Shown: positions 1 through 42,842 of the stretch, one piece after another
Numbering within the stretch: position 1 is the first letter of the stretch
Layout: each line of letters opens with the position of its first letter
NCBI GenBank assembly: GCA_008080595.1
Contig: VIKI01000076.1
Location: forward strand, 22,209 to 65,050
DNA length: 42,842 nt
Source of the DNA: Comamonadaceae bacterium
GTDB lineage: Bacteria > Pseudomonadota > Gammaproteobacteria > Burkholderiales > Burkholderiaceae_C
Direction of reading: 5' to 3'
Notes under the pieces: generated by a model
Databases searched by the model: none
What the model was told of the DNA's origin: nothing
What the model saw: only the letters and a program-made list of their open reading frames with translations
Program-made: the position numbers and the translations under genes

Positions 1-579
1 AATCAAACTTGAAAACAAAACACCAATCACAGGGTATTGAACTGCAGCCTTTTTCTTTTTCTTGGATGCGGCCGGATCTTCTTCACCACCACCGCCAAAA
101 GGGACAGAAGTTTCACGCAAAATGTCTTCTATCAATTTTTGCTTGCCCTCGGCAGAAAGCAGTTCCTCTGAAGTTTTTTGCGACAACAGCATGAGCACAC
201 CACTGCGAATGGTGGGCATATAGGCTTTGACTGAATCTGACGCATGCGCATCAACCACTTCCAGTGTGATACCGACTTGTGCTACCTTTTCACCACCTGG
301 ATCAGCCAAATTCACGACCATGTTATCCATAGGAAGATAAACCGGTGGCGTTTTAGCTGCACCATGCGCTGCAGCGGCTGGTGCGTGAGCTGCGGTAGCA
401 CCATCGCCGCCTTCCTCCTCTGCAGCAGCGGCAGCAGCTGCTGCCTTTTGCTTCATGTACAAAAAAGCACCGCCCCCGCCCAGCACCAATACCAGTACAA
501 CCCCGATGATGATGAACAATTTTTTTTTGCTTTTCGGTGCAGGCTTGGCCTCATCGCCTTCTTCATGTTTGGTAGCCAC
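1..579 (-). CDS. fliL: FliL, flagellar basal body-associated protein (3' end cut by window edge)
   Basis: FliL is a single-pass inner-membrane protein that surrounds the stator units and supports torque under load. The frame runs from a GTG at 579 to the window edge: 193 codons without a stop. A short basic cytoplasmic segment is followed by one membrane span at about residues 24-42 (LFIIIGVVLVLVLGGGGAFL), an Ala/Glu-rich linker, and a periplasmic FliL domain from about residue 85 (PPVYLPMDNMVVNLADPGG). The visible end resembles the family C-terminus, so only a few residues are likely missing. GTG is chosen because AAAGGAAA lies just upstream and no ATG fits before the membrane span. A run of nine A on the coding strand (520-528) encodes part of the Lys tract. 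It is last of the visible fliF-to-fliL series; fliM would be expected next, outside the window. Confidence 0.93.
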   Translation of the reverse strand, partial: MATKHEEGDEAKPAPKSKKKLFIIIGVVLVLVLGGGGAFLYMKQKAAAAAAAAEEEGGDGATAAHAPAAAAHGAAKTPPVYLPMDNMVVNLADPGGEKVAQVGITLEVVDAHASDSVKAYMPTIRSGVLMLLSQKTSEELLSAEGKQKLIEDILRETSVPFGGGGEEDPAASKKKKKAAVQYPVIGVLFSSLI

Positions 580-690
580 AATTTTTCCTTTGCAACACTA
601 TTTCAAAGTGATTATTGAGCACAAATGCGTGCTTGACGATGGGATAAACAGTCAAAAAACCCTGTACCCGTCAACCTACAGAGTCTACCG

Positions 691-2175
691 TCAGACAAAC
701 AAATCCAGAGAGCGCCCCACAGCCAGATTTACCGGACGCGAAACAGCCACATCAATGGCATCCGTTGACACCAAATTGACCTGCTGAGCAGCCGGTCGCT
801 GGTGTCGATCTCCGCCAGTCTGCTGACTCCCTGCGCCCGAGTTGCTTACAGACATCCCAGACAATTGGAGACCTTGATTTGAAAGCAAGTCTTTGAGCTG
901 TGCGCTTGCATTCTCAAGAACCTGACGAACACCTGGCTGATCTGTGCGGAAATCAATTTGTGCTTGGTCACCTTTGAGCGAAATGCTAACCTCCACAGGA
1001 GTTTCACCAAAACCATCAAGTGTCAACTCCGCAGAGTGCACGCCATGACTGGCCCAATATGTGACTGTTTCAGCCACCGCAGTTTCGGCGACCAAAGCTG
1101 AAGCCGGGGGTATTTCAAACACAGCATCTGAACGATTAGCGGCAGTCATGGCTTGACCAAAAACACCTTCAAATCCATTGGCACCCGTTTGTCCAAACCC
1201 TGATTTATTGCCCAAACGCGCCTGAGGCCGGATCAAATCACTCCCATTCAGCAGATTGATGGCTACATCAGAAGGTAAAACCATCGTCGTTGAAAGATCT
1301 GTTGATACCGATATTGGCTGCAAGTCTTGTGTAACATGACTGCTCGTGTTCGATAAATATGAACTTTTTTGTCCCCCAAAGGCGTGGATTGGTGATGCTG
1401 AAAATACCTCAGGTGCACCCTGATCTTGCCCATTGGCCCTATTTTGCTGCTGAGGATTGAGAGACTCCAGTGAAAACTTCTTGACTTCAGTCGTCAAAAT
1501 CGTCGAGTCACCTGAGGACTGGTTTTTTGGAGGGGCACCAAATTTTTGAGGGGCACCAGATACCGGTGCTTGTGGCAAGTTCAAAGTCAAAGGTGCAAAA
1601 GGTTCGGCATCATTCGGAGCAGGCTGCTGGGCAGGCAATTCCTTTGAAATGGCCTGCCCCATCACAGGAAGCGCAATACTTTGCAAAACATCTGTTGGTG
1701 GTGACAATAACTCTGCACCAGTTGAGTTGTTCAAGTTTGGCATTTCCATCATGGTGGACAAAGCCGAGGCAGCATCTATAACGGGATCAGGAGTCGTTGT
1801 TTGCGTCAAAGCGCTGAAATTCATCCCATTACCATTCAATATTGACAAGGTGTCGGTTTGAACTAATGCTAATGCTGATGCTGATGCTGATGAATTGTCT
1901 GTATTCAGAATCGATGGCTGCAATGCAGAGTTTGCAAATGTGAAGGAAAGCAGCTGGCTCGCCCCACCCACCGCTGAATCCGTATCTTCAGTTGATAAAG
2001 TCTTCACACCCAACCCCGCTTCACACTCGCCCGAAGTCGATAACAAACTCAAGACAGAGGCAAACCCGCCTCCAGCATCCGCAAAAGAGGTATTGGCTTT
2101 ACCCGTTTTGTTGGCATGATGGCTATGGGCAACCGCTTTGCTGCCAACGGTCGCGCTACCAGATTCAATGCTCAT
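691..2175 (-). CDS. fliK: FliK, flagellar hook-length control protein
   Basis: FliK is the secreted molecular ruler that measures hook length and switches the export gate from rod/hook to filament substrates. The 494-residue product has the usual low-complexity Ser/Ala/Gln-rich N-terminal two thirds. A compact C-terminal Flg_hook domain lies at about residues 375-460 (ELTLDGFGETPVEVSISLKG, then a LKDLLSNQGLQLSGMSV-type helix). The start at 2175 (MSIESGSATVG) is preferred over the longer upstream ATG at 2271, because the upstream 32 codons lie inside fliJ and look unrelated to FliK. With this start the gene overlaps the fliJ end by 11 bp. The N-terminal half carries a short hexanucleotide repeat encoding Ser-Ala and Ala-Leu pairs. 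The C-terminal domain is confident; the rest is identified by position and composition. Confidence 0.9.
   Translation of the reverse strand: MSIESGSATVGSKAVAHSHHANKTGKANTSFADAGGGFASVLSLLSTSGECEAGLGVKTLSTEDTDSAVGGASQLLSFTFANSALQPSILNTDNSSASASALALVQTDTLSILNGNGMNFSALTQTTTPDPVIDAASALSTMMEMPNLNNSTGAELLSPPTDVLQSIALPVMGQAISKELPAQQPAPNDAEPFAPLTLNLPQAPVSGAPQKFGAPPKNQSSGDSTILTTEVKKFSLESLNPQQQNRANGQDQGAPEVFSASPIHAFGGQKSSYLSNTSSHVTQDLQPISVSTDLSTTMVLPSDVAINLLNGSDLIRPQARLGNKSGFGQTGANGFEGVFGQAMTAANRSDAVFEIPPASALVAETAVAETVTYWASHGVHSAELTLDGFGETPVEVSISLKGDQAQIDFRTDQPGVRQVLENASAQLKDLLSNQGLQLSGMSVSNSGAGSQQTGGDRHQRPAAQQVNLVSTDAIDVAVSRPVNLAVGRSLDLFV
1865..1892 (-). repeat. Short hexanucleotide tandem repeat inside fliK
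   Basis: About four to five imperfect units of a 6-bp motif (plus strand GATGCT / AATGCT) encode alternating Ser-Ala and Ala-Leu residues in the FliK linker. Because the unit is a multiple of three, copy-number change would alter linker length without breaking the frame. Confidence 0.6.
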
Positions 2176-2612
2176 GGTTATGCTCCAATTTTTGACGAAC
2201 TTGCCGCAAAATTTGCATTGATGCAAACTCATCCATTTGTTTTTGATCCCGCCGCTGCAGCCGTTTTTCAACTTCTGCTTGGCGTTTGACCAGAACCTGC
2301 TTCAAACTTGCAATTCGAAACTCTGCCTGTAAAAGCTGCTGCTGTGCAAGCTTTACCCGGTCTTCAGATGCACGCAGAACATTTTCTTGCAACAAAATAG
2401 CATGCTGCAATCGCCCCATAAACTGGTAGTGGTGGTGCAATAACTCAGGCGTAGTACTGATCTGCGCGTTTGTTGTCCAGCGTTTTTCCGTCTCATCAGC
2501 GTACTGCTGCAACTGGTTCATCTGGTCATTGTTTATTCATTTCAGACAAAGCCTGATCACGCTTGGTAACCGCCAAATCAATCGCCAACTGAAGACTTCT
2601 AAATTGAGGCAT
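2165..2612 (-). pseudogene. fliJ: FliJ, flagellar export chaperone/stalk, frameshifted near the N-terminus
   Basis: FliJ is a small coiled-coil protein that forms the stalk of the FliI ATPase ring and links it to the FlhA gate. The natural start is the ATG at 2612 (MPQFRSLQLAIDLAVTKRDQ), 18 bp after fliI. That frame stops at TGA 2526-2528 after 28 codons. The rest of FliJ (QMNQLQQYADETEKRW onward) continues in another frame to 2165, where a 118-codon reading frame starts at ATG 2521. By comparison with the family I estimate that 20 or 23 bases, about seven to eight residues, are missing at the junction near 2520-2545. Reinitiation at 2521, 4 bp after the stop, could give an N-terminally truncated FliJ. 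The downstream part is well preserved and helical, so the lesion is recent or an assembly error. Confidence 0.8.
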
Positions 2613-2630
2613 GGTGTAAACCAATCATTG

Positions 2631-5773: not shown

Positions 5774-7376
5774 TCACGCGGGGGCCTCACCATTAATCCA
5801 AGTTTTGACTATGTTAGCCACTGCAGCGGGATTGTCGCGGGTTAATTTTCGTGCTTCATCCAATGCCAGGTCACTCGGACTGAGTTCCGACGCTTGACTC
5901 GAAGCGACCGTGGGCCCAGCAAGCAAAGGCCGCTCAGGTTCATCGGCTTCAATCGCATCCAGCTGACCAGCTCGTCCACCTTCCGGCACAGATACCGGTT
6001 GCGCCATAACCTTCAAAGCCGGACGCACCGCCCCCATCAAAACGAGTGTCCCAAACAGCAAGGTACCCAATGGCCAGGCAAAACTGCGCGCCAAATCCAA
6101 CAATTCAGGCTGTTGCCACAGCGGCAGCGGAGTCACATTCACAGTTTCCTTGGTGAAGGGTGCCGTGACCACATTGACGGAATCACCCCGATCCTTGCTG
6201 AATCCCACGGTTTCACGCACCAAAGCCGTCAGTTTTTCCATCTGGGCATCACTCATTGCAGCCGTGCTGGTCTTGCCCTTTGCATCGGTCACGGTTTGGT
6301 GGTTGATGATGACTGCCGCACTGATGCGTTTGACCATACCGGTGCTGCCACGCACCACACGTACCGTCTTGTCAACCTCGTAATTGATCACCGATTCGCG
6401 CCGTCCACCATTGGCACCGGTAGCCCCCCCCGCTGCAGTCATCGCCTGAGGTGCACCATTGATCGCCGCAGTGGTCGGGCCTGGGGGTTGGTTGGTCGTG
6501 GCACCCGGCACGCCAGTTGGCGGCGTTGCCGCAGCCGTTGACCCACCCGTTTCAAGCAGCTGCTGGCTGCGAATAGAGGTGGAGTCTGGCGTTTGATTTG
6601 GTTTGAACAATTCAGACGTGGACTCCGTCTGCGAAAAATCGAGTTCTGCCGTCACCTGAGCACGTACATTCTGGCGGCCCACCACGGGCTCCAAAATATC
6701 CAGAATACGACTGCTGTAAAGCTGTTCGATCTGCTGAACATATTGCAATTGCTGAGCATCTACACCCAAACCACCGACGGCATCGACTGGGGTCGAGAGC
6801 AATTTGCCTGTGTCATCCAACACACTCACAGCCTTGGGATCCATCTCTGGAACACTGGAAGACACTAAGTGAATGATGCCCGCTAACTGAGCACGGTCAA
6901 GCGTTCTGCCAGCATTCAAACTGACCAACACCGAGGCCGAAGGTTTTTGCTGGTCTCTGAAAAACCCATTTTGATTAGGCAAAGCCAAATGCACACGCGC
7001 ACTCTGCACGGAATTCAAGGCCTGGATCGAGCGGGTCAGCTCGCCCTCAAGTCCCCGTTGGAATGTCAAACGCTCTTGGAATTGAGTCATGCCAAACCAC
7101 CAAATTGGCTGGCACCAAAATCGCACCACCGCCTGCAGCATACTGATACGGCACATTCATCTGGGTAAGCTGCGCAACAATCGCCCCACCGTCTTTGTCA
7201 GGCAAATTGGCATACAACACACGCCATTCAGCCTGACGACCCATCATCAGACCAATGATGCCAATGGCCACAAACAGCACAATACCGACCCCTAAACGTA
7301 GTTTTTGGGCCTGATCCAAGCCAGCCAAGCGCTGGGAAAAAGTTGGGTTTACAGGTATTGCAAGTGCGGCAGTCAT
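5774..7376 (-). pseudogene. fliF: FliF, MS-ring protein, frameshifted with a missing internal segment
   Basis: FliF forms the MS ring, the base on which the flagellum is built. The start at 7376 (MTAALAIPVNPTFSQRLAGL) opens a normal N-terminus. A membrane span lies at about residues 29-45, then the ring-building domain runs up to AGGGAILVPAN near 7104. The next conserved residues, FGMTQFQERLTFQRGLEGEL (from 7096), lie in another frame. In relatives about 28 residues separate these blocks, so I estimate roughly 83 bases are missing. The rest is well preserved: the second ring-building domain, a Gly/Pro/Ala-rich periplasmic loop, the second membrane span (about 6050-6110) and the FliG-binding tail ending NPAAVANIVKTWINGEAPA. 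As written, only a truncated N-terminal product of about 109 residues could be made from this start. Confidence 0.88.
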
Positions 7377-7550
7377 ATCAATCTTCCATGGCAATAGGGC
7401 GTAATGCACCTTTGTTGCGGTTGATTATTGGCCTCACATCTGAAAACATGAGGTTAATAAGACTGGTTTTTACCCCTTACTTCAAATTAATGTTTGCACA
7501 AGTGCCTTGCTAGCATCCCTGACACGCACATGCTTTAGAGCGAAAACACC

Positions 7551-10446: not shown

Positions 10447-11946
10447 TTACCGAAGCAGTGCCAACACACCTTGCGGCAATTGGTTAGCTTGTGCCACCAT
10501 GGCCGTACCGGCTTGTTGCAAGATCTGAGCACGTGACAGGTTAGCCGTTTCAGAGGCGAAGTCGGCATCCTGAATGCGACCACGGGCAGCAGATTGATTT
10601 TCAGACGAAATCTGCAGAGACGAAATCGTTGTCTCAAACCGTGACTGCAAAGCACCTAATTTGGCTCGCTCACCACTGATGAACTGTAGCGCAGAATCCA
10701 CCGTTTTTAATGCATCGGTCGCCTTAGTGAAGGTTGTGATGTCCAACTCGGACACTTTCTTCAAAGTCGAAGTCGCCGTAGTGAAATTGTTAAAAGTGGT
10801 TGATGTAGCTGCGAACGACTTTTCCGAGTCCAGCGTCAGGTAGCCAGAAACCGACACGTATTCACCAGCTGCAACAGTCGCTGCGCTGATAGCTCGTGCC
10901 GTGCCCACTGAACCCAAGGCACCAGCCGTATCAGCCTGCATTTTTTTCACGGTGGCTGCACCACCATTAGCAGACGTGCCTGCTTTGCCGATAATCATGT
11001 CATTGCCAGACTCATTGGTTAAGATGATTCCATCATTGGTCGCATTGAGCTCTGCAGTGATACCCGTCTTGGATGACTTGTCGTTAATGGCCTGAACTGC
11101 AGCAGACAAGCCATCCGCACCCGTTATGGCGGTCAAGCTGAAGCTGACGGTTTCTGCCGTGCTGTTATCCGCCTTGAGTGCAAGCGAATAGCCGCCTGTT
11201 GCACTAAAAGAGAGTTCGCTAACGGTGCGAGCTGTCGCCTGTACACCCGTGCTGGAAGTTTGTGCATTCACCTTGTCAGCGGTTGCCTTGGCAGTTTCAC
11301 TAACCAAGACAGAGATATCTTTGGTACCGAGAGAACCTGCAATACCGAGCGTCCCGGCCGCCACACCATTGGTCGCACCCGCAACCGTGGCTACCGTCGC
11401 TGCAGCCCCCAGTGTTGATGCTGCAGCCTGGTTATTTCCATACACGTTGGTACGCATATTGGCTGTAGCAGCCACAATGGTTTGATTGGCATTGGCACCC
11501 ACTTGATACCTGGCCGACCCAAAAGTACCATCCAGAATTTTCTGACCGTTGAACTCAGTGGTCTGCGCAACACGATCCAACTCACTTACCAGTTGGGTCA
11601 CCTCTTGGTTCAGCGCTTGGCGGTCACTTGCGGTGTTGGTGGCATTGGCAGACTGCACGGCCAATTCACGAACACGCTGCAAAATGTCGCCAGCAGCCTT
11701 CATGGCACCTTCTGTAGTTTGAGCCAAAGAAATACCATCATTTGCGTTCCGCACAGCCTGATTCAAACCACGAATTTGCCCAGTGAAACGCTCTGAAATG
11801 GCCAAACCGGCTGCATCGTCTTTGGCGCTGTTGATGCGCAAACCTGAAGACAAACGCTGAATAGCCGTACTGAGCGACGAAGCGCTGGCCCCGAGTTGGC
11901 GTTGAGCCGTCAACGAATTGACATTGGTGTTGATAGTGGAAGCCAT
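10447..11946 (-). CDS. fliC: Flagellin 1
   Basis: This is the filament subunit. The 499-residue product has the conserved D0/D1 N-terminus ([40 protein letters not shown]) and C-terminus ([20 protein letters not shown], ending [10 protein letters not shown]). Between them is a large Ser/Thr/Ala-rich surface domain that could carry O-glycans. AGGAGA precedes the ATG. A strong sigma-28 promoter lies about 125 bp upstream. It is divergent from a second flagellin of identical length. The two differ more in their first 130 residues (roughly 18% by hand count) than in the central domain (roughly 7%), opposite to the usual flagellin pattern. Symbol by family; numbering of the two copies is arbitrary. 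Confidence 0.97.
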
Positions 11947-12298: not shown

Positions 12299-13798
12299 AT
12301 GGCCTCAACCATCAACACCAACGTCAGTTCCTTGACAGCACAGCGAAACCTGAGCGCAAGCCAGCTTTCACTCTCGACATCCGTCCAACGTCTCTCTTCA
12401 GGTTTACGCATCAACAGCGCCAAAGACGATGCAGCCGGTTTGGCGATTACGGAACGCTTTACAAGTCAAATCCGCGGTGTTGTTCAGGCTGCCCGAAACG
12501 CAAATGATGGTATTTCATTGGCCCAGGTGGCAGAAGGTGCCATGGGCTCAGCCAGCAATATTCTTCAGCGTGTTCGTGAATTGGCCGTGCAGTCCGCCAA
12601 CTCAACCAACAGCGCGAGTGACCGCCAAGCGCTGAATCAAGAAGTGACTCAACTGGTGAGTGAATTGGATCGTATTGCAGTCAATACCGAATTCAACGGA
12701 CAAAAGCTGCTCGACGGCACGTTTGGTACTGCCAAATACCAAGTTGGTGCCAACGCCAATCAAACCATTGTGGCGGCTACAGCCAATATGCGTACCAATG
12801 TGTATGGAAATAACCAAGCCGGAGCAACAACACTGGGTGCTTCGGCGACTGTTGCCACAGTCGCAGGTGCAACCAATGGCGTAGTGGCCGGGACACTCGG
12901 TATTGCAGGTTCTCTCGGAACCAAAGATATCTCTGTCTTGGTTAGTGAAACTGCCAAGGCAACCGCAGACAAGGTGAACGCGCAAACGCCCAGCACAGGT
13001 GTACAGGCAACAGCTCGCACGGTTGCTGAACTGACTTTTGGTGCAACAGGCGGCTATTCGCTTGCACTCAAGGCGGACAACAGCACAGTCGAAACAGTCA
13101 GCTTCAGCTTGACTGCCATAACGGGGTCAGATGGCTTGTCTGCTGCAGTGCAGGCCATCAACGAAAAGTCGTCCAAAACGGGGATCACTGCAGAGCTGAA
13201 TGCAACCAATGATGGTATCGTTCTGACCAATGAGTCTGGCAACGACATGATTGTCGGCAAAGCCGGTACGGCAGCTAACGGTGGTGCGACCACCGTGAAA
13301 AAAATGCAGGTCAATACGGCTGGTGCCTTAGGCTCAGTGGGTACGGCACGAGATATTAGCGCCGCAACTGTGGCTGCTGGTGAGTACGTATCGCTTTCAG
13401 GCTACCTGACGCTGGACTCAGAAAAGTCGTTCGCAGCCACATCAACCACTTTTAACAACTTCACTACGAATACCTCGACCTTGAAAAAGGTATCAGAGTT
13501 GGACATCACATCTTTTACCAAGGCCACCGACGCGCTGAAAACGGTGGATTCTGCATTACAGTTCATCAGCGGAGAGCGCGCGAAACTTGGCGCTTTGCAA
13601 TCCAGGTTTGAAACAAGCATTTCGTCTCTGAATATTTCAGCCGAAAATCAATCCGCTGCCCGCAGCCGGATTCAAGACGCTGACTTTGCAGCAGAAACCG
13701 CCAACCTTTCACGCGCACAGATTCTGCAACAAGCGGGCACGGCCATGGTGGCACAAGCCAATCAGATTCCACAGGGTGTCCTTCAACTACTGAAGTAA
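12299..13798 (+). CDS. fliC: Flagellin 2
   Basis: Second filament subunit, 499 residues, head-to-head with fliC1. It has the full flagellin D0/D1 ends ([40 protein letters not shown]; final [10 protein letters not shown]) and a central domain almost the same as that of fliC1. One run of 47 identical bases exists at 12920-12966 versus 11279-11325. TTAGGAG precedes the ATG. No clear sigma-28 promoter was found upstream, unlike fliC1, so the two genes are probably expressed differently. A strong hairpin terminator follows the stop. Both copies look intact. Confidence 0.97.
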
Positions 13799-13874: not shown

Positions 13875-16019
13875 ATGAAAAATCTTCAAACTCGCCTTAT
13901 CGATGCATTCAAGCAACAAAACTGGGGGAGTTTGAGTGATTTATGCAAAAAACAACTCGCAATCGACAAAAAAAATCTTTTAGCCAACCGTTATCTAGGA
14001 TTTTCTCTTCATAAATTACATCTGGAAAGTCAAGCGATTCAAGCTTTTAATGAAGCCATTCGCAGACATCCAAATGATTTAGAAATTAAATTAAATTTTG
14101 CCAATACCTTGATGGCGAATGGTAGTTATTTCGATGCCATTCCGCTCTTGGAAACCATATGCAAACATAAAAAAAATGCATTTTCTCCATGGGTTTTGTT
14201 ATCGCAATCACTTTATCTGACACAAGACTCGAGAAGAGGAATTAAGTGTGGCATTCATTTGCAAGAAATCGCAAAAACAGATCAGGAAAAATCTGTTGCT
14301 CTGCGGCAAAAAGCATTACATCGCAGAGAGTTAGGTGAAATTAGAGAAGCAATTGTAGATTGCCAAAATGCAATCAAACTTGATCCAACGGAAGCTGCAA
14401 ACTATACAAACAAACTACTCTTTATGCTTGCAGATCCAGAGTATAAAGTAAAATCAATCAAAGATGCCGCAGATGAATTTGCTGTTCAATTTGAATTGCC
14501 GATAAAGCACCTTTGGACACAACATGATCGAACCCTTCTGAAACCGTGGAAAAAACTTAATATTGGATTCTTGTCTCCTGATTTTAAGAGTCATTCGGTC
14601 ATGTATTTTCTCGAAGGGCTACTCGCCAGTCTAGATCGACATCAATTTAATATCATTGCCTTCCACTTGCACACTGGTTGTGATCTTGTAGTCAAAAATC
14701 ATGTTGATGTTTTTGTCAATTTAAACAATCACAGCTACCCAGAGCAAATAGATCTAATTACCGCACAACAACCAGATATCATTATCGATGTCGCAGGCCA
14801 TACTGGAAATAATGGCCTTCACTTAATGGCAAGAAAACTTGCGCCGATTCAAGTATCATGGCTTGGATATCCAGCTACGACTGGTCTCACAGCAATTGAT
14901 TATAAAATTACAGATGAAGTCACCGATCCACCAGGTGCAGACATAGAATATTCTGAAAAGCTATATCGACTCCATACTCTTTTTTGTTGCTACCGACCAC
15001 ATATTCGAAATCCACTATGGCGTTACCAACCTGCCTTTCTTGTTCAATCCACACCCGCATTGAGCAATGGTTACGTGACTTTTGGAAGTTGTAATAATTT
15101 GGGGAAATTGACAGATAATGTGCTGAAGTTATGGGGTCAACTGCTGCATGAAATACCGAACGCACGATTGTTGATTGAAGGTAAAAATCTAGACGAACCC
15201 GAATTCGGAAATAAATACCAGGCGCGGTGCGAATCATTGGGTATCCCGCTGGATCGACTGGAACTTATACCATTAGACAGTAACAACCAATATCTAACCT
15301 ACCACCGCATTGATATTGCACTGGATCCCTTCCCGCTGACAGGTGGTACAACTACTTTTGACTTGCTCTGGATGGGATTGCCGCTGGTTTCCATGCAAGG
15401 GGACTGTTTCAAAAGCCGTCTGAGCACGGGCATCTTGAGCTACCTGGATCGCAAACAATGGTTGGCAAACAGTCCTGAGGAATACATCGACATTGCGAAA
15501 AAGTTGGCATCTGACATTGATGCGCTCAATACATCACGGCTGACACAGCGGAAACAGGTTGAGGATTCGCCGCTGATGAATGAGCGTCACTATACAAAAT
15601 TGTTTGGCCAGGCAATGCGCGAAATGTGGCTGCGTTGGCTGGCGCAAGGCCCCCACCCAAAACAAGCACAGCTGATTGAGCAATGGCACAGAGAGATACC
15701 TGCGCCATTGCAAACGAACACCCCACCAGAGGTGGGTGTGGCTACCGGAAAACGGCTCAGTTTGAATCAGGCCCATGAAAAACTGCAACATTTGCTAGAG
15801 CAAGCAAAAACACAATCCCCAGATACAGCACAAGGTTCTGGACAAATCAGTGACAAAAACTGGCGAGAAGTCACTGAATTTGCGGAAACCGTTTTATCAG
15901 CGATACCCCATGAGCCATTGGCGCTTGCGTGCTTGGCCGAGGTAGAGCACGCACACGGGCACACCGATTTTGCTGTGACTTACTTGCAATATGCAGCCCA
16001 ATCGATAAGCGCTCAATAA
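13875..16019 (+). CDS. TPR-containing O-linked GlcNAc transferase-like glycosyltransferase (GT41, SPINDLY type)
   Basis: Soluble 714-residue protein. The N-terminal 180 or so residues are TPR-like helices (LANRYLGFSLHKLHLESQAI; AIVDCQNAIKLDPTEAANYT). They are followed by a bacterial OGT catalytic domain at about residues 225-620. Recognisable blocks are NIGFLSPDFKSHSVMYFLEG, DIIIDVAGHTGNNGLHLMAR, APIQVSWLGYPATTGLTAID and DIALDPFPLTGGTTTFDLLW. GT41 enzymes add sugars to Ser/Thr of proteins. The position beside the flagellins suggests flagellin as acceptor, which is inference. The first half is clearly more AT-rich than the second half and its neighbours, so the gene may be mosaic. No ribosome binding site is visible, and a terminator ends 12 bp before the ATG. 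Confidence 0.9.
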   Translation: MKNLQTRLIDAFKQQNWGSLSDLCKKQLAIDKKNLLANRYLGFSLHKLHLESQAIQAFNEAIRRHPNDLEIKLNFANTLMANGSYFDAIPLLETICKHKKNAFSPWVLLSQSLYLTQDSRRGIKCGIHLQEIAKTDQEKSVALRQKALHRRELGEIREAIVDCQNAIKLDPTEAANYTNKLLFMLADPEYKVKSIKDAADEFAVQFELPIKHLWTQHDRTLLKPWKKLNIGFLSPDFKSHSVMYFLEGLLASLDRHQFNIIAFHLHTGCDLVVKNHVDVFVNLNNHSYPEQIDLITAQQPDIIIDVAGHTGNNGLHLMARKLAPIQVSWLGYPATTGLTAIDYKITDEVTDPPGADIEYSEKLYRLHTLFCCYRPHIRNPLWRYQPAFLVQSTPALSNGYVTFGSCNNLGKLTDNVLKLWGQLLHEIPNARLLIEGKNLDEPEFGNKYQARCESLGIPLDRLELIPLDSNNQYLTYHRIDIALDPFPLTGGTTTFDLLWMGLPLVSMQGDCFKSRLSTGILSYLDRKQWLANSPEEYIDIAKKLASDIDALNTSRLTQRKQVEDSPLMNERHYTKLFGQAMREMWLRWLAQGPHPKQAQLIEQWHREIPAPLQTNTPPEVGVATGKRLSLNQAHEKLQHLLEQAKTQSPDTAQGSGQISDKNWREVTEFAETVLSAIPHEPLALACLAEVEHAHGHTDFAVTYLQYAAQSISAQ

Positions 16020-16023
16020 ACTG

Positions 16024-16803
16024 CTAACCCACGCGCCTTAAAAATCCATCAGGTGCCACTGTCACCATCAATTTGTTCGGCCAGGTGGGGTCAATTTGAA
16101 AATCAGATCGACTCTTCAGCCATTGATGCACCGCAGTCTTTGGGTTGTTGCCAACATCCCATGGTCTGTCAGCGAAAAACCCAGGCGGCATATCGTCCAC
16201 AAAAGAATCAAACACCACGCAATAGCTACCGACTGACACCATCGGCGCATACGCATTCAGTTCTGCCAATACATGTTCATGGGTGTGCATGGAGTCCAGC
16301 AACACCAGAACCCGCTTGTAACCCTGACTTTCTTGCCTTACTTTCGAGACGGTCACGGGATCAATGGAAGAACCCTGGATCATTCGAATACGGTTACCCA
16401 AGGGGTGTGATTCAATGGCTTGAAGATTGTGTGCACGAATGTCAATATCTACCCCGATAACTTTGCGTTGGCTCTTGCAGGGGTCTAACAGCGTACCTGC
16501 TTCGGTGGCATCGCAAATATCCAGCAAGGCCAAAAGACTGGCGCTCAGAACAAGCGAACCACCATGTGCAATGCCGGTCTCAATGATCAAATCAGGGCGC
16601 ACCCGCCAAACCAGCTCTTGTATGGCAACCATATCCTGTGGATATTGAATGATCGGGCGACCCAGCCAATCAAAGTTGTACACATATTTGCGCTGCATGG
16701 AGGCTTGAAGCCAATCGCGTGACAACGCCTGGAATTTATCGTCTTGACCGTAGGACGCAATGCGCTCACGTTGCTCGGCTTGGAATTGCTCATTTGGATT
16801 CAT
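16024..16803 (-). CDS. CmcI-like family protein (cephalosporin hydroxylase / sugar O-methyltransferase type)
   Basis: 259-residue protein of the CmcI/rhamnosyl O-methyltransferase family, a Rossmann fold using S-adenosylmethionine and a metal ion. Visible features are LIIETGIAHGGSLVLSASLL (SAM-binding loop, about residues 74-93), VIGVDIDIRAHN (about 116-127), and VLVLLDSMHTHEHVLAEL with the metal-ligand-like DSxHTHEHV. In polysaccharide clusters such proteins methylate sugar hydroxyls. The start at 16803 (MNPNEQFQAEQRERI) fits the family N-terminus with GGAG upstream; a longer start at 16917 would overlap the preceding gene by 20 bp. It is last in the minus-strand sugar cassette, 94 bp after the epimerase, and converges with the OGT gene 4 bp away. 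Confidence 0.82.
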   Translation of the reverse strand: MNPNEQFQAEQRERIASYGQDDKFQALSRDWLQASMQRKYVYNFDWLGRPIIQYPQDMVAIQELVWRVRPDLIIETGIAHGGSLVLSASLLALLDICDATEAGTLLDPCKSQRKVIGVDIDIRAHNLQAIESHPLGNRIRMIQGSSIDPVTVSKVRQESQGYKRVLVLLDSMHTHEHVLAELNAYAPMVSVGSYCVVFDSFVDDMPPGFFADRPWDVGNNPKTAVHQWLKSRSDFQIDPTWPNKLMVTVAPDGFLRRVG

Positions 16804-16897
16804 AGTGGGGACATCTCCAGAGGTTGAATAACACGATTCCTGCGTGATTGATTTTGAATCTTTGATTTCGGCACATTGACCATCACCCGTCCAACGC

Positions 16898-17710
16898 TCA
16901 AGCAGAATAGAAACCATGTGAATCTTTCATCACAGGCTTGGGAATAAAACCAAACTCGGACTGAATCCGCTCAATCCGAATTGGCAAGAATTGTTGTAAC
17001 GGTGCATTGGGCAGTACCGACCAAGTGCACCCGTTTTCAGCGCAAATGAATTCCAGCCATTGCGCATGAGTGGTTTGTATTCCACTGGCCAAGTTGTACA
17101 CCTTGTGCTGGCCACGCCAGGCAATTTGGGCCAATTGACTGGTGACATCATCCATGCAAATGTAGTCTTTTGCAGACTCAGGGGCGCTACGCAAAAGCAC
17201 CGCCCCTCGGCGAGCGTCTTGCATCAGACTGTACACAAAACTGTCGTGATTACCACCTGTGCCGCCCACCACATTGGACAAACGCACCACCTTGCCAGGC
17301 CGTCCCGAATGCAACACCAGGGATTCACCCAGCAATTTGGAAAGCTTGTACAAATCATCGGGGACTTGAGTATTGACGGTCAACGTTTGGTCTTCGTAGG
17401 TATCAGATGCCCCCAGATACACCCGTGTGCTGGAGAGGTAAATCAATTGGTCAAACCGGCCATGCTGAAGCACTTTACTCAACACCCCCACATGCGCATC
17501 GACGGTTTCAAATGGCCGACTGCGAAAGTCTGCAGTCAAACCGATGCAATAAAAAACCGTCCCCAGTGGCCGCTGCAAAATACTGGGATCGTCCCGTTGG
17601 GGCACCCAACAATCGTGGCCCAGTTGTTGCAAATAAGCGGCCAAGTGCTGACCAATATAGCCATGACCGCCGAGCACGGTGACCTGTTCAGGACTGTCCA
17701 CATGACTCAT
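16898..17710 (-). CDS. NAD-dependent epimerase/dehydratase family protein (short-chain, extended type)
   Basis: 270-residue extended SDR. The N-terminal dinucleotide loop GGHGYIGQHLAAYLQQLGHD lies at about residues 14-33. LIYLSSTRVYLG at about 90 gives the catalytic Ser/Thr strand. The active-site pair is YKLSK at about 122. It is shorter than full sugar-nucleotide epimerases (about 310-340 residues). In the cassette it could act as a 4-ketoreductase on the CDP-4-keto-6-deoxysugar intermediate; that step is otherwise unassigned here, so this is inference. ATG at 17710 overlaps the preceding acyltransferase stop by 4 bp (ATGA). Confidence 0.82.
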   Translation of the reverse strand: MSHVDSPEQVTVLGGHGYIGQHLAAYLQQLGHDCWVPQRDDPSILQRPLGTVFYCIGLTADFRSRPFETVDAHVGVLSKVLQHGRFDQLIYLSSTRVYLGASDTYEDQTLTVNTQVPDDLYKLSKLLGESLVLHSGRPGKVVRLSNVVGGTGGNHDSFVYSLMQDARRGAVLLRSAPESAKDYICMDDVTSQLAQIAWRGQHKVYNLASGIQTTHAQWLEFICAENGCTWSVLPNAPLQQFLPIRIERIQSEFGFIPKPVMKDSHGFYSA

Positions 17711-19457: not shown

Positions 19458-19467
19458 CCTGGATTCC

Positions 19468-24158: not shown

Positions 24159-24990
24159 ATGGCCACTGAAGCCAAAAAACTACAACCCATCATCATCAAA
24201 CGGGTCAAAAAAGGTGGCCACTCTGCGCATGGTGGAGCCTGGAAGATTGCCTACGCCGACTTTGTCACCGCCATGATGGCCTTCTTTCTGCTCATGTGGC
24301 TGTTGGGGAGCACATCCGAGGGTGACAAAAAAGGCTTGTCTGATTATTTTCAATCCCCACTGAAAGTCGCTATGCAAGGCGGCAGTGGCGCTGGTGCGAG
24401 TGCCAGCGTTATTAAAAGCCAAGGCAGCGCGAGCCAAACAAGATGCCCAAAAATTGGCAGAGCTCAGTGCCAAGATCAGTGCTGTCATCTCCAATACACC
24501 TAAATTAGCTGAGTTCAGCAGCCAGATTCAGTTAAAAATGACCCCCGACGGCCTTCAAATACAGATTGTCGACGACCAGAAGCGCCCTATGTTTGACAGT
24601 GGCAGCGCCAGCGTCAAACCCTATATGCGAGACATCCTGCAGGAAATTGGCCTGGCACTTACGGATATTGACAACAAAATCAGCCTTGATGGACACACCG
24701 ACCAAACGCCCTATGGTGCAGGAGCCCGCAGCTACAGCAACTGGGAACTCTCAGCTGATCGTGCTAACGCCTCAAGGCGTGAACTGGTTGTAGCAGGTAT
24801 GCCAGACAACAAAATTGCCCGGGTCATGGGCCTCGCCTCAAGTGTATTACTTGATGAAGAGCATCCGCGCAGCCCTACTAACCGTAGAATCAGCATTACA
24901 GTGATGACTCGTGAAGCCGAGGAGCGTTTACTCGGACCAAGGCGTGCAGATGTCATCACAGAAACCAATGCTGCGCCGGTGCAAAATTAG
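24159..24990 (+). pseudogene. motB: MotB, flagellar stator/peptidoglycan anchor, frameshifted with missing linker
   Basis: MotB contributes the proton-binding Asp and anchors the stator to peptidoglycan. The N-terminal part is normal: IIIKRVKKGG, and the membrane span YADFVTAMMAFFLLMWLLG with the key Asp at residue 34, to GGSGAGASASVI near 24412. The frame then changes. LLKAKAARAKQDAQKLAELS and the full OmpA-like domain (PMFDSGSASVKPYMRDIL; ISLDGHTDQTPY; YSNWELSADRANASRRELV; NRRISITVM) continue in frame +1 to 24990. Relatives have about 30 extra residues between these parts, so I estimate roughly 89 bases are missing. As written, the product from the start is a 114-residue stub without the OmpA domain. 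Confidence 0.9.
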
Positions 24991-26223: not shown

Positions 26224-27381
26224 ATGGATTCCAGTAGCCAAGACCGCAATTTACCTGCCTCCGAGAGGAAGCTGCAGAAAGCTCGTGACGATGGTCAGGT
26301 CGCACGCTCACGTGAGCTGTCCAACTTGGCGATTCTGGGTGGTGGTGCGCTGAGCCTGATGTGGCTTGCGCCACTGATGCTGGAACGTCTCCAAACCCAG
26401 TTGAGTCTTCAGTTGATCTTTGATGCCCATGCGGTTCAAGAACCGTTGAGCATGATCAACCGATTGGCATCCATGGTCACCGTCGGCTTGGTGGCCTGCA
26501 CGGTGTTTGCAGCCATTCTCTCGACCATCGCCATTCTCAGCACATTGGCGGTTGGGGGCTGGGTCGCCAGTCTCAAACCCATCACACCAGACTTTAGTCG
26601 CATCAACCCATTCAGCGGTTTGGGACGTATGTTCACAAAAGACAAAGCCACTGAAGTGCTTAAAGTGGTTTTTATTGCCGGCATGCTGTTGGCTGTTGGT
26701 TTTACCTATCTGTCCAATGGTCTCGACACACTTGCATCTCTGGTCCTGCAACCATCAAGCTCAGCAATATCCTATTTATCGAACTGGTTAACCACCGGCA
26801 TGGGCCTGATGCTGCTGGTTGTTTTATTGGTGGCCATGGTGGACGTACCTCTGCAAACTTTTCTGCACAAATCACGCATGAAGATGTCACACCAGGAAAT
26901 GAAACAAGAACACAAAGAATCCGACGGCAATCCCCAAATGAAAGGCCAGATACGCCAACGCCAACGTGATATTGCCCAAGGCAATAGCATCAAGGCCGTG
27001 CCCAAAGCCGACTTTGTATTGATGAACCCCACACACTATGCGGTAGCCATCCGCTATGACGAAGGCAGCATGGCAGCACCACAGGTGATTTCAAAAGGCG
27101 CAGATTTGTTGGCTTTCAAAATACGTGACCTGGCCACAGAGCATGCCATTCCAGTGTTGCAGTCGCCGATGCTGGCACGCGCCTTGTATGCCAACGCCGA
27201 AATTGATCAGGATATCCCTATCAGTCTGTACACCGCAGTGGCGCAGGTGTTGGCCTATATTTATCGACTCAAAGCGGCCATGCGTGGTGAAGGTGTCATG
27301 CCAGGTGAGCCCCCTGTGCCCTTTGTACCGCCAGAACTGGATCCTCTTTCCAAAGTGGTTGCCACCACTGACACGCCATGA
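26224..27381 (+). CDS. flhB: FlhB, flagellar export gate/substrate-specificity switch
   Basis: FlhB is an inner-membrane part of the flagellar export gate. Its cytoplasmic domain is self-cleaved to allow the switch from hook to filament export. The 385-residue product starts ASERKLQKARDDGQVARSRE (residues 12-31), has four hydrophobic segments (about 36-55, 82-108, 140-165, 190-212) and the autocleavage motif NPTH at residues 268-271. The C-terminal tail beyond the core is Pro-rich (GEPPVPFVPPELDPLSK). The reading frame is intact. The stop overlaps flhA by ATGA. Confidence 0.96.
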   Translation: MDSSSQDRNLPASERKLQKARDDGQVARSRELSNLAILGGGALSLMWLAPLMLERLQTQLSLQLIFDAHAVQEPLSMINRLASMVTVGLVACTVFAAILSTIAILSTLAVGGWVASLKPITPDFSRINPFSGLGRMFTKDKATEVLKVVFIAGMLLAVGFTYLSNGLDTLASLVLQPSSSAISYLSNWLTTGMGLMLLVVLLVAMVDVPLQTFLHKSRMKMSHQEMKQEHKESDGNPQMKGQIRQRQRDIAQGNSIKAVPKADFVLMNPTHYAVAIRYDEGSMAAPQVISKGADLLAFKIRDLATEHAIPVLQSPMLARALYANAEIDQDIPISLYTAVAQVLAYIYRLKAAMRGEGVMPGEPPVPFVPPELDPLSKVVATTDTP

Positions 27382-29292
27382 ACCTGTCACTTCACACCCT
27401 CAAGACCTGGTTTAGCAGCAACTCTGCCTTGATGAAAGGTGCTGCCGCCCCGATGCTGGTGGTGGCCATTCTGTCCATGATGGTGCTCCCCTTGGCACCT
27501 TGGGTACTTGACACATTTTTCACCTTCAACATTGCCGTGGCTTTGATGGTGATGATGGTGGCCGCCTACATGCTTAAGCCACTTGACTTTGCGGCTTTTC
27601 CAGCCGTTTTGCTGCTGACCACCTTGATGCGCTTGTCCTTGAATGTGGCCTCTACCCGCGTGGTTTTGCTTGAGGGCCACACCGGCCCAGGAGCCGCAGG
27701 TGCAGTGATTGAGGCCTTTGGTCATTTCCTGATTGGTGGCAACTTTGCTGTCGGCTTGATCGTTTTTTCCATTTTGGTGGTTATCAACTTTGTCGTGGTC
27801 ACCAAAGGTGCTGAACGTATTGCTGAAGTGTCAGCCCGGTTTGCCCTGGATGCCATGCCTGGCAAGCAGATGGCGGTGGATGCCGACCTGAATGCCGGCC
27901 TGATTGACGAAAAGGAAGCCAAACGCCGCCGCTCCGAAGTTTCTGAAGAAGCTGATTTTTTTGGCTCCATGGATGGTGCTTCCAAGTTTGTGCGCGGCGA
28001 TGCCATCGCCGGTATCTTGATTCTCCTGATCAATATTTTTGGTGGTTTCACAGTCGGCGTGCTGCAGCACGGATTAACAGCGGCTCAAGCGGCTGACTCG
28101 TACATTTTGCTGGCAGTAGGTGATGCCTTGGTCGCACAGATTCCAGGCTTGCTCATTTCTGTCGCGGCGGCCATGGTGGTGTCGCGTGTGGGTAAGGAAA
28201 ATGATTTGAGCGACCAAATCGTCACCCAAATGTTCATTTCCCCCAAGGTGCTTGGCATCACTGCCACCATCATGGGTATTTTGGGAGTCATTCCAGGCAT
28301 GCCGCACACCGTGTTCCTGGGAATTGCCATGATCTTGGGTTACGGTGCATGGGTGCTAGCCCATAAGCCAGAACCGGTTGAACCCAGCACCATCGCCCCA
28401 GCCCCAACCTCGGACGGCGAAGCCAGCTGGGACGATTTGCAACCGGTTGACCAACTGGGCCTGGAGCTTGGCTACCGCCTGATCCCAGCGGTTACCGCAT
28501 TACCCTGCGTGGAGTTATTGTGGGTGAAGGTGAAGCATTCCCTGGCCAACACCTGGCCATCAACCCAGGCGGCATCTCCACCCCGTTGATTGGCACCCCC
28601 ACCACTGACCCCGCATTTGGTCTGCCCGCACACTGGATCGATGCCACACAAAAAGAAGCCGCACAAATGGCCGGATTTACCGTGGTTGATTCCGAGACTG
28701 TCATGGCCACACATTTGTCACACTTGATGCAAGTGCAGGCAGCCAAATTGCTAAGCCGCACAGAAACCCAACAACTGGTAGAACACTGGTCTCCATTGCT
28801 GTCTTTCAAAAAGTATTGCAATTGTTGCTGGAAGAGTCCGTGCATATTCGCGACATTCGCACCATCATTGAATCCATCGCCGAACACGCCACCACAGTCA
28901 CCGACCCGGCTGAGCTGGCCAAACGCGTCCGCATTGCCCTGTCACCGGCCATCGTTCAGCAAATATACGGAGCCATCAATGAACTCAACGTCATTGCCAT
29001 TGACCCACCGCTGGAACGGCTGCTGGTACAAGCCCTGGGCAATGCCTCTGGTCAAGGCCAGGCTCTTGACCCTGGCGTAGCAGACATCCTGACGAAAAAA
29101 GCCGCAGAAATGGCACTCAAACAGGAAGAAATCGGCATTCCAGCATGTTTGCTGGTACCGGATCAGATTCGCAGCTCGGTCGCCCGTTTGGTGCGCCGGG
29201 TTGCCCCACGACTGCAGGTGCTCGCACACAGCGAAATTCCTGAGTCACACTCCATTCGCATTGGCCCGATTCTCAAAGGTGCAGCATCATGA
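27378..29292 (+). pseudogene. flhA: FlhA, flagellar export gate protein, two frameshifts with missing segments
   Basis: FlhA is the nonameric export gate. The N-terminal membrane half is intact: eight hydrophobic spans, and the FHIPEP region around RLSLNVASTRVVLLEGHTGP and DAMPGKQMAVDADLNAGLID. The cytoplasmic half changes frame twice. After DQLGLELGYRLI (28484) the sequence jumps to SGYRITLRGVIVGEGEAFPG (from 28487) in a second frame, lacking about 44 residues. After TETQQLVEH (28786) it jumps to VSIAVFQKVLQLLLEE (from 28789) in a third frame, lacking about 16 residues. The end (CLLVPDQIRSSVARLVRR, RIGPILKGAAS) is normal and overlaps flhF by ATGA. Total span is about 638 codons against about 700 in relatives. 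As written, translation ends at 28589 after 403 codons. Confidence 0.92.
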
Positions 29293-34056: not shown

Positions 34057-34470
34057 ATGTTTGCTCAAATGACCAGTGGTTTGGATATTCATGCCAAAGC
34101 CTTGGTGCTGCGTGCTGAACGCCAACGCATCCTGGCCAGTAACATGGCCAATGCAGATACACCCGGAATGACAGGTGACTACGGACGCAGTTTGCCCAAA
34201 TTAGGGCTTAACACAAGCACCCAAGGCGGCGCACCGACAACAGCATCCAACCCAAACCACATTGCACTTGGCAACATCAGCCAAGGCCAGCTCAACGGTA
34301 ACCCAACTTTGGCCTACGCCATGCAAAGCCAGCCCAGTGTGGACGGCAACAGTGTGGACATGGATCGCGAGCGTGCCAGTTTCGTCGACAACTCGGTCCG
34401 GTATGAATCTACCTTGCGCTTCATCAACGGCCAGTCAAAAACCATTTTGAGTGCCATCCAAGGGCAATAA
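34057..34470 (+). CDS. flgB: FlgB, proximal rod protein (probable small in-frame loss)
   Basis: FlgB is a proximal rod subunit exported to the periplasm. The N-terminal rod signature is clear (LDIHAKALVLRAERQRILAS, NMANADTPG at about residues 29-37). The C-terminal part is also normal (QSQPSVDGNSVDMDRERASF, then the final helix). The conserved GYxARDxDF block expected right after NADTPG is missing; instead MTGDYGRSLPKLGLNTST follows. The protein (137 residues) stays in frame, but by alignment from memory about 15 residues seem lost. This would be an in-frame relative of the frameshifting losses seen in other genes. ATG at 34057 begins the flgBCDEFGHIJK series. Confidence 0.9.
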   Translation: MFAQMTSGLDIHAKALVLRAERQRILASNMANADTPGMTGDYGRSLPKLGLNTSTQGGAPTTASNPNHIALGNISQGQLNGNPTLAYAMQSQPSVDGNSVDMDRERASFVDNSVRYESTLRFINGQSKTILSAIQGQ

Positions 34471-37612: not shown

Positions 37613-37630
37613 TATTTCAAGGACATCATC

Positions 37631-38413: not shown

Positions 38414-38428
38414 TGCATGAGGCTGATC

Positions 38429-39154: not shown

Positions 39155-39187
39155 AGTTGCGCAGAATTGTGCCGAGGGGTAAACCAA

Positions 39188-40265
39188 ATGCACAATTTTT
39201 TCAACACACCAAAAACCAGCGCTTTCCACAGCGAAGCGCCTGCCCGTAGAAGGCGTGCGCAGCAATCAGCTCACCGGCTTTGGTTTGGTGGTCGGCCTGG
39301 ACGGCACCGGTGACCAAACCACCCAAATGCCTTACACCTCACAAGGCATTGCCAATTACCTGCAACAGCTGGGCATCACCCTGCCCACCGCGCAAGCTTC
39401 CCAGTTGCAAATGAAAAACGTGGCCGCAGTGCTGGTCACAGCACAACTGCCGGCCTTTGCCCGCCCGGGCCAAGCCATTGATGTCAACGTATCCTCCCTG
39501 GGCAACTCCAAGTCGCTCAAAGGCGGCATGTTGATCTCCACCCCGCTCAAAGGCGCGGATGGCGAGATTTACGCCATTGCCCAGGGCAGCCTGGTGGTCG
39601 CAGGCGCAGGCGCAGCAGCCGGCGGCAGCAAAGTGCAAGTGAACCACTTGAGTGCCGGTCGTATTCCCAACGGTGCACAGGTGGAACGCAGCGTGCCCAC
39701 CCCCTTGCAAGAAGGCAGCAGCCTGACGCTGGGCCTGGAAGCCAGCGACTTTCAAACCGCCCGCAAAGTGGCACAAGCCATCAACACCCGGTTTGGCGCA
39801 GGTTCGGCCCAAGCGCTGGATGGCCGCACCATCCGGGTCAATGCCCCGATGGAGCCCGATGCCCGTGTCACCTTCATGGCCGAACTGGAAGAACTGCCGC
39901 TCGAAGCCACCATTGCCGCAGCCAAAGTGGTCATCAACGCCCGTACCGGCTCGATCGTGCTGAACCAGGCCGTCACCTTGGGCCCGTGCGCCATTGCTCA
40001 CGGCAATTTGTCCATCAGCATCAGCAACACCCCCAGCGTGAGCCAGCCCAATGCCTTGTCGGGCGGGCAAACCACGGTGACCGAAAAATCCGACATCCAG
40101 ATCAAAAACGAACCCGGCATGCTGATCCAGCTGCAAGCGGCACCCCAACTCGCCGACGTGGTGCGCGCCCTGAACTCTTTGGGTGCCACACCCCAAGACC
40201 TGCTGGCCATTTTGCAAGCCATCAAGGCCGCAGGTGCCCTGAATGCTGAGCTGGAGGTGATCTGA
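39188..40265 (+). pseudogene. flgI: FlgI, P-ring protein, N-terminal signal region damaged
   Basis: FlgI makes the periplasmic P ring and needs a Sec signal peptide. The mature domain is complete from LPVEGVRSNQLTGFGLVVGL (codons from 39240) to the end at 40265 (ATPQDLLAILQAIKAAGALN, AELEVI), with the usual GLDGTGDQT and MKNVAAVLVTAQLPAFARPG. Upstream, the only suitable start, ATG 39188 (MHNFFNTPKTSA), is in another frame. No hydrophobic segment, cleavage site or the RIKDL-type mature start is present. I infer that roughly 70 bases were lost between about 39222 and 39240, where a GCGCTT/AAGCGC inverted repeat lies. A product from the in-frame GTG at 39255 (336 residues) would be cytoplasmic. 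The stop overlaps flgJ by one base. Confidence 0.82.
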
Positions 40266-41179
40266 TGAGCCTCGGTCAATCCACCTCTGTGTCGAGCGGG
40301 CTGGCCGCCGATGCCAAGTCGCTCAACCAGCTCAAGCTGCAAGCCGGGCAAAGCAGCCCACAGGCGATCAAAGAAACCGCCAAGCAATTTGAGTCGCTGT
40401 TCATGCGCGAACTGATCAAAAGCATGCGTGAAGCCACCATGAAATCCGGCATGCTCGACAGTCCTGGCTCCGACTTGGGCTCGGATTTGCTCGATCAACA
40501 ACTGGCGGTGCAAATGTCAGGCAAACCTGGTGGTTTGTCTGACATGATTGCAGCTCAATTGTCACGCCAAATGGGTGTTGCCACTCCAGACATGAAAAGT
40601 GTGGGCCAATTGCCCAGCCAAGCCACCAGTGCGTTGCAGCGTGCATCGTCGCTTGCGGCCTATGGCAAACAAGCCATCAACCCCACCAGCAATCAAACCG
40701 GTTTTGTTCAAAGCCACACCCAGGCCGCCATTCGGATCGAAAAAGAAACTGGCATTCCGGCCAGTTACATGGTCGGCCAGGCCGGGCATGAAACCGGTTG
40801 GGGCCAGCATGAAATCAAGATGCGTGGCGGCAAGCCGTCTTACAACCTGTTTGGCATCAAGGCCGATGCCAATTGGAAAGGCAAGGTGGCTGAAGTCACC
40901 ACCACCGAATATGTGAACGGTGTGGCCCAGAAACAAGTGGCCAAGTTCCGTGCCTACGACTCTTATGACGAATCGTTCCGGGACTACGCCCGAATGATCA
41001 CCACCTCACCGCGTTATGCCAAAGCCAAAGAGCAAACCGGTTCTGCCTTTGCCTTTGCCAGCGGTTTGCAAAAAGCCGGCTACGCCACCGACCCCAACTA
41101 CGCCGCCAAGTTGAGCCGAGCCATTGAAACCACCCAACGGTTACAAGCACGCACCCAAGTGCTTGCGCAAAGCATATGA
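40265..41179 (+). CDS. flgJ: FlgJ, rod cap and peptidoglycan hydrolase
   Basis: FlgJ caps the growing rod and cuts peptidoglycan to let it through. The 304-residue product has the N-terminal rod-binding domain (ETAKQFESLFMRELIKSMRE, about residues 37-56; DSPGSDLGSDLLDQQLAVQM). Its C-terminal glucosaminidase domain starts about residue 145. The catalytic Glu lies in VGQAGHETGWGQHEI, followed by YNLFGIKADANWKGKVAEVT, FRAYDSYDESFRDYARMI and AGYATDPNYAAKL. This two-domain form is typical of beta- and gammaproteobacteria. ATG at 40265 shares one base with the flgI stop; its stop overlaps flgK by ATGA. Confidence 0.96.
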   Translation: MSLGQSTSVSSGLAADAKSLNQLKLQAGQSSPQAIKETAKQFESLFMRELIKSMREATMKSGMLDSPGSDLGSDLLDQQLAVQMSGKPGGLSDMIAAQLSRQMGVATPDMKSVGQLPSQATSALQRASSLAAYGKQAINPTSNQTGFVQSHTQAAIRIEKETGIPASYMVGQAGHETGWGQHEIKMRGGKPSYNLFGIKADANWKGKVAEVTTTEYVNGVAQKQVAKFRAYDSYDESFRDYARMITTSPRYAKAKEQTGSAFAFASGLQKAGYATDPNYAAKLSRAIETTQRLQARTQVLAQSI

Positions 41180-42842
41180 GCGTCCTGAGTGTCAGCGCCC
41201 GGGCCTTGATGGCCAACCAGACCGTGTTACAAACCACGGGCAACAACATTGCCAATGTCAACACGCCCGGCTATTCGCGCCAAACCGCGCAACTGAAGAC
41301 ATCAACCAGCCAATACTCCGGCTCCGGCTACATCGGCAAGGGGATGGATGTCGCCACCATCACACGCAGCTACAGCGAATTCCTGACACGCCAGGCAGCG
41401 CTTGCGGGGGCCACCAGCGCCAGTGACACGACACGCACCGAAAAGCTCAAGCTACTGGAAACCTTGTTCCCCGGCGGAACCAATGGCTTGGGCGCAGCAG
41501 TAAGTGACATGCTGAACTCTTTTTCAGACGTAACTAGCGCACCGACCGACCTGACCGCGCGCACCGTCGCACTGACCAAGACCAACGAAACAGCCAGCCG
41601 CATGCGCAGTGCTTCGACCAATATGGACGATCTGCAACAAGGCGTGAAAATCGAACTCAACCAAAAAATCACCGCCATCAATACGCTGGCGGCCAGTGTG
41701 GCATCGATCAACGACAAAATTGCCCGAGCCAAGGGCAATGGGCAACCCCCCAATGATTTGCTGGATCAGCGCGATCAACTGATGCGAGAAATCAACCAAT
41801 TTATCCAAACCTCCAGCATACAAGCCGATGACGGAACCATCACCGTGTTTGTCGGTGGCTCACAAGCCTTGGTCATGGGCATCGACTCCTCGACCCTGGC
41901 CCTGGGCCCAGACGAATATGGCGACCCCACCAAAAGCAAGCTGACCATCACCCGCACCGGCCAAACCTCCACCTTCAACGAAGAGACGCTGGGGGGTGGC
42001 GAAGTTTCAGGTTTGCTGCGGTTTCAAAACACCGACATGAACGAGGCTCGCAACTTGTTGGGCCGCTATACCCTGGCCATCAGCTCCAGCATGAATGACC
42101 AGCACAAGCTGGGATTGGATATGGATGGCAATACCGGCACAAATCTATTTACCACCAGTGCCTTCGTTTCCGCCTCAAGCAAGACATTTACCACCGCCCA
42201 CGTCCTGCCCAAGAGTACCGGCAACAGTTCTACCTACACCTTGACCCTCTCTTTGCAAGATGCCACCAAGTTGGCCGCATCGGATTACCAGGTCAACTTC
42301 ACATCGAATTCATCAGGAACCATCACCCGCGCCTCAGATGGCAAATCGATCAATTTCTCTTACACACAAGCCACCGGTACTTTCTCATTTCAAGCCGCAA
42401 CCGACCCCGTTGCCGGGCCCTATACCGCCACAGATTTTGACGGCCTGAGCGTGACCGCCCCGGCAGGAACTGCGGTGGTCGCCAACGACAAATTTCAGAT
42501 CAAACCCTTCAGCATCGCAGCCAGCAATATCAGCACAGAATTTTCAACCCCCCGGGCTTTGGCTGTCGCCAGTCCAGTGGCGGGCCGGATGGGCGCCAAC
42601 AACACCGGCAGCCTGCAATTGCTGTCCATAGCTGCACGCACCAACCCACCCACCAACGTACCCGTCACGATCAGTTTTACCGGCAGCAACACCTACACAC
42701 GCAGTGACACCGGAGCTGTAAGCTACGCCTACACCTCGGGCCAGACCATTGAAGGTTCTGTTCCAGCGACTACCCCATTAAGCGAGTGGTCACTCACATT
42801 GCACGGCTCACCCAAAGCGGGCGACACCTTCGCTGTGATAGC
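41176..42842 (+). CDS. flgK: FlgK, hook-filament junction protein 1 (3' end cut by window edge)
   Basis: FlgK (HAP1) joins hook and filament. The open frame runs from ATG 41176, overlapping flgJ, to the window edge: 555 codons without a stop. The N-terminus is typical (MSVLSVSARALMANQTVLQT, TGNNIANVNTPGYSRQTAQL), followed by a helical D1 region (LLDQRDQLMREINQFIQTSS at about residues 195-214) and a long Ser/Thr-rich variable part. The C-terminal D0 helices lie outside the window. FlgN (32262-32660) should be its chaperone. Confidence 0.95.
   Translation, partial: MSVLSVSARALMANQTVLQTTGNNIANVNTPGYSRQTAQLKTSTSQYSGSGYIGKGMDVATITRSYSEFLTRQAALAGATSASDTTRTEKLKLLETLFPGGTNGLGAAVSDMLNSFSDVTSAPTDLTARTVALTKTNETASRMRSASTNMDDLQQGVKIELNQKITAINTLAASVASINDKIARAKGNGQPPNDLLDQRDQLMREINQFIQTSSIQADDGTITVFVGGSQALVMGIDSSTLALGPDEYGDPTKSKLTITRTGQTSTFNEETLGGGEVSGLLRFQNTDMNEARNLLGRYTLAISSSMNDQHKLGLDMDGNTGTNLFTTSAFVSASSKTFTTAHVLPKSTGNSSTYTLTLSLQDATKLAASDYQVNFTSNSSGTITRASDGKSINFSYTQATGTFSFQAATDPVAGPYTATDFDGLSVTAPAGTAVVANDKFQIKPFSIAASNISTEFSTPRALAVASPVAGRMGANNTGSLQLLSIAARTNPPTNVPVTISFTGSNTYTRSDTGAVSYAYTSGQTIEGSVPATTPLSEWSLTLHGSPKAGDTFAVI

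Follow-up and report, generated by a model that had tools for sequence, protein, structure and literature searches.

The DNA considered here, referred to below as the window, is a stretch of 42,842 nucleotides (bases 22,209-65,050 of scaffold C57, which has 84,605 bases). It carries flagellar genes, six of which lack short segments. The question that this locus raises is whether the lineage has recently lost motility through many small deletions or whether the segments were dropped during assembly. The source assembly has a size of 5.42 Mb, consists of 322 contigs and is 89% complete; a family search finds no match to rplB in it, which is a sign of incompleteness, and two of its contigs (C3 and C12) are N throughout. 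The FliG protein of the window is closest to that of Rhodoferax (99% identity), and the genome appears to be a Rhodoferax-like draft. A closed genome of the same genus, G010 (one contig, 4.94 Mb), was used as a yardstick. Its FlhA shares 95% identity with that of the window in the first 373 residues. The sample comprised about 696 kb of the source assembly, including the window, and 1.16 Mb of G010; 224,172 bases could be aligned.

The first-pass annotation of this DNA had placed seven junctions in six genes (fliF, fliJ, motB, flgB, flgI and, twice, flhA), estimating that 20-130 bases were lost at them. All seven are confirmed by the comparison with G010 (Table 1), which gives deletion lengths of 23-127 nt, in good agreement with the estimates. 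The block thought to be missing from flgB is indeed lost in frame. At the flgI junction the right flank aligns poorly to G010. In Pfam searches FliF and MotB are each split over two frames and FlhA over three, and tblastn likewise finds FliJ split over two frames. The neighbouring genes are intact, as annotated: FliG, FliI, FlhB, FlgE, FlgG, FliD and the two flagellins have open frames that fit their families.

Table 1. Broken flagellar genes of the window and the scaffold gaps that bound it; missing lengths are relative to G010
Feature	Position in window	Strand	Details
7-N scaffold gap	directly before position 1		flanks overlap by 5 nt
fliJ, two frames	2171..2612	-	junction ~2530, 23 nt missing
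fliF, two frames	5774..7409	-	junction ~7097, 83 nt missing
motB, two frames	24159..24990	+	junction 24383-24416, 89 nt net missing
flhA, three frames	27378..29292	+	junctions ~28484 (127 nt missing) and ~28787 (46 nt missing)
flgB, in-frame loss	34057..34470	+	42 nt missing at ~34167
flgI, broken near 5' end	39221..40265	+	junction 39221-39244, ~68 nt net missing
51-N scaffold gap	directly after the window end (42842)		120 nt in G010

The remainder of the broken genes is well conserved, as had been claimed. Third codon positions carry far more mismatches than first and second positions both in the broken fliF, fliJ, motB, flhA and flgI and in the unbroken fliG, fliH, fliI, flhB and flgH, and the values for the two sets of five lie in the same range (flgB was outside this test). 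The broken genes thus show no relaxed selection relative to the unbroken ones, a result that a very recent loss of function would also give.

The lesions of fliF, fliJ and flhA do not recur in the relatives searched. Of 80 named relatives, 74 have FliF in a single frame and six have it in part; for FliJ the figures are 30 in a single frame, 43 partial and seven without a match. Neither is broken in any of the 80, and a FliF or FliJ in two frames occurs in the window only. The best FlhA match lies in an open frame of 696-771 amino acids in all 21 relatives with a match, out of 29 searched, so that the proposal to look for the same lesions in sister genomes yields none. For motB, flgB and flgI the comparison was with G010. 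The 403-residue FlhA of the window forms a cluster of one protein from one contig (84,605 bases), and the other 119 FlhA proteins among the matches listed have 496-697 residues. The remaining eight of the 29 relatives gave no FlhA match. They include G001, G003 and G015, which belong to the same genus and have 98% completeness, and loss of the whole flagellum may therefore occur in this genus.

Losses of this type, 22-186 nt in length, recur in many other sampled parts of the assembly. A clean deletion was defined as one gap of 15 nt or more relative to G010, with no N nearby and at least 22 identical bases out of 30 on each side. This rule omits events whose flanks align poorly (motB and flgI in the window, and also infB), events less than 150 nt from the end of a stretch, and valS. 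There are 24 clean deletions and three insertions in the 224,172 aligned bases. Of the deletions, the 28,166 aligned bases of the window hold five and the 196,006 bases outside hold 19 (binomial p 0.22). If "coding" is taken to mean inside any G010 open frame of at least 100 amino acids, frame-breaking events comprise 14 deletions, four in the window and ten outside (p 0.09), and no insertions. The rates per 10 kb are 1.78 in the window versus 0.97 outside for all clean deletions, and 1.42 versus 0.51 for those that break the frame. The window rate is higher, but not significantly so, and the lesions are spread over the genome regardless of gene function. Some stretches lack such deletions, among them the 16.6 kb contig carrying rpoBC. 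The same count applied to loci of the named relatives gave no events in 42 kb, which come from the ten of 80 loci left after the identity filter.

A frame-switch hidden Markov model trained on G010 was used as a further measure. When the upstream stop is required to be more than 60 nt away, the assembly has 19 switches in 465 kb of coding sequence, four of them near N runs, versus six in 792 kb of the closed G010; this rule was picked after inspection of the list of switches, and the six in G010 were counted by eye. Under the same rule there are no switches in 667 kb from the fliG loci of 80 named relatives, which represent one homologous region many times over and are not independent. Under a looser rule the counts are 52 in the assembly and 42 in G010 (11.2 versus 5.3 per 100 kb of coding sequence), indicating that ordinary gene overlaps are among them. 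In the window the model finds three of the six frame-breaking lesions as direct switches, two of which pass the 60-nt rule. The two halves of 15 switch candidates were searched separately. In five cases both fall on adjacent regions of a single Pfam profile (those of a transketolase-type enzyme, a GGDEF/EAL protein, MacB, DUF1329 and UbiD), four cases are compatible with a protein divided at a domain boundary (CheA, a TPP enzyme, IF-2 and an outer-membrane efflux protein), and three gave nothing useful. The remaining three (L178:1362, L172:5907 and L163:14315) are pairs of separate adjacent genes. DNA alignment, as the sole evidence, adds typA, a degP-like gene and rimI to the broken genes.

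Essential genes are affected too. Nine core families (rpoB, ftsZ, rplB, nuoG, infB, dnaE, ffh, tsaB and ileS) were searched for in the assembly. A 29-nt gap (C257:927) puts dnaE into two frames, a 40-nt gap (C5:3161) does the same to ffh, and a 22-nt gap (C259:8845) to valS, which was met during the ileS search. All three genes are essential in bacteria. No intact copy of any of them was found in the 89% complete assembly; a second valS was judged by the ileS-family search, which would have shown one. A cell with dnaE, ffh and valS as written could not live, and the breaks are thus most likely artefacts of the assembly. Thirty nucleotides are missing in frame from nuoG. The infB gene is broken as well, but this case is weaker, since the gap falls within the variable N-terminal part and the gene is distributed between two contigs. 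The rpoB and ftsZ genes are intact, as is tsaB, whose position had suggested a break that the family search did not bear out, and ileS merely runs off the end of a contig.

In 46 events the junctions share 0-3 nt with the missing segment, which lends little support to microhomology-mediated deletion; the sharing was judged on segments of G010, which differ from the strain's own and may hide longer sharing. When the 24 missing segments are ranked among random windows they are ordinary, with mean ranks of 0.50 for GC and 0.51 for folding, which disposes of a sequence-specific drop-out related to these properties. Relocation of the lost sequence to a different contig was considered for the 127-nt segment of flhA, which matches nowhere else in the assembly. 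The scaffolds contain 21 N runs, each of 1-62 nt, and in eight of these the flanks overlap by 5-16 nt. Six runs could be located on G010, and in these the number of Ns deviates from the length of the G010 gap by 2 to 110 nt.

There is little doubt that the breaks are artefacts of some kind, and the segments of fliF, fliJ, motB, flhA, flgB and flgI were most probably lost where assembly gaps were closed without sequence, by joining contigs end to end. A genome that was presumably thinly covered would have been assembled into short contigs, which would then have been ordered by read pairs. If the gap between two contigs was estimated at zero or below, they may have been set end to end without Ns. 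In an N-free join of this kind the bases between the contigs would be lost and the frame would change in consequence. The gaps, their spread and one-sidedness, the broken essential genes, and the N runs of these scaffolds, some of whose flanks overlap, are all shown by the sequence comparison. Points against this explanation are the higher, though not significantly higher, rate in the window, the stretches and genes free of such deletions (the rpoBC contig, rpoB, ftsZ and tsaB), missing segments whose GC and folding give no reason for drop-out, and the size of the largest N-free gaps (up to 186 nt), which exceeds the size errors of the N runs. Errors of a related sort have been described for metagenome-assembled genomes: according to the sections of Chen et al. 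(2020, PMC7111523) on local assembly errors, draft scaffolds may contain Ns inserted during scaffolding despite overlapping flanks, as well as incomplete or wrong protein-coding genes. Unlike the cases in those sections, many gaps in the present scaffolds have no Ns at all, so that they resemble clean deletions. Simulations outlined in PMC11017572 show that spurious frameshifts and internal stops increase as coverage falls. The spurious pseudogenes treated in that portion of the work, from RefSeq and E. coli assemblies, are alike in that genes seem to be broken through sequencing and assembly; the present losses differ in measuring 22-186 nt.

An artefact of another kind, local misassembly of mixed strains through wrong graph paths or collapsed variants, would give the same genome-wide pattern, and local errors in metagenome assemblies are on record, at least in the sections of PMC7111523 cited above. 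We nevertheless consider it rather unlikely, since a graph path running through a common word would be expected to leave longer sharing than the 0-3 nt found at the junctions, even though the G010 segments may conceal some of it, and since the N runs show that these very scaffolds were built with read pairs. Recent loss of motility, with flagellar genes decaying by many small deletions, had been the other reading put forward in the first-pass annotation. It draws on the breakage of several genes required for motility while the rest appear intact, on a CheA-like gene that is probably broken too, on the eight relatives without an FlhA match, and on the higher rate of frame-breaking deletions in the window. 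Yet the lesions are not concentrated in motility genes, as 19 of the 24 clean deletions lie elsewhere and the same lesions affect dnaE, ffh, valS and unrelated genes; the broken genes keep their codon constraint, although a very recent loss would look alike; and the junctions, compared with G010 segments, share no more than 0-3 nt. This explanation is therefore very improbable. Flagellar decay in non-motile lineages is similar in that several flagellar genes have frame-breaking deletions, but differs from the present case, in which essential housekeeping genes are also affected.

Decay of the whole genome, as in a new host-restricted symbiont, would make the flagellar genes one part of a wider process and would agree with the functional variety of the genes found broken in the sample. 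At 5.4 Mb, however, the genome is larger than the closed G010 (4.9 Mb), dnaE, ffh and valS are essential and lack a detectable intact copy, and the broken flagellar genes have deletions without any relaxation of codon constraint; hence we give this possibility almost no weight. It is equally hard to believe that the deletions are real and represent a burst of blunt micro-deletions, tens of bases in size, that struck many genes together in a population that was seen before selection acted and whose intact essential copies were not assembled.

End-to-end joining of contigs thus remains the preferred explanation. The suggestion that short segments were lost during assembly agrees with the tests that were run and is in all likelihood right, given the spread of the lesions, the essential genes among them and the N runs. 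The statement that the cell, as written, cannot swim probably does not hold for the organism: the sequence feature is present as described, but the biology that it suggests is most likely not real. The strain's own flagellar genes are probably intact, and the cell may well swim. The locus is consequently ordinary as biology. Its value is as a warning that a draft genome from which 22-186 nt have dropped out without leaving Ns can mimic gene decay, and a comparison of a few essential genes with a closed relative is a quick way to tell such an artefact from decay.

Some further features were observed beside the broken genes and elsewhere in the assembly. The two flagellin genes of the window are divergent and equal in length, occupying positions 10450-11946 on the minus strand and 12299-13795 on the plus strand, and their products are identical in 444 of 499 residues. 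Positions 13875-21962, between the flagellins and flhC, show no long DNA alignment to the flagellar region of G010. Genes for a TPR/glycosyltransferase-41 protein, sugar-nucleotide enzymes, a methyltransferase, an epimerase and a hexapeptide transferase lie there, and these perhaps serve the glycosylation of flagellin. On contig C9, a RhuM-family gene is situated directly beside a gene for a Wadjet JetD C-terminal domain (L163:13046-14329 and 14278-14721, both on the minus strand).
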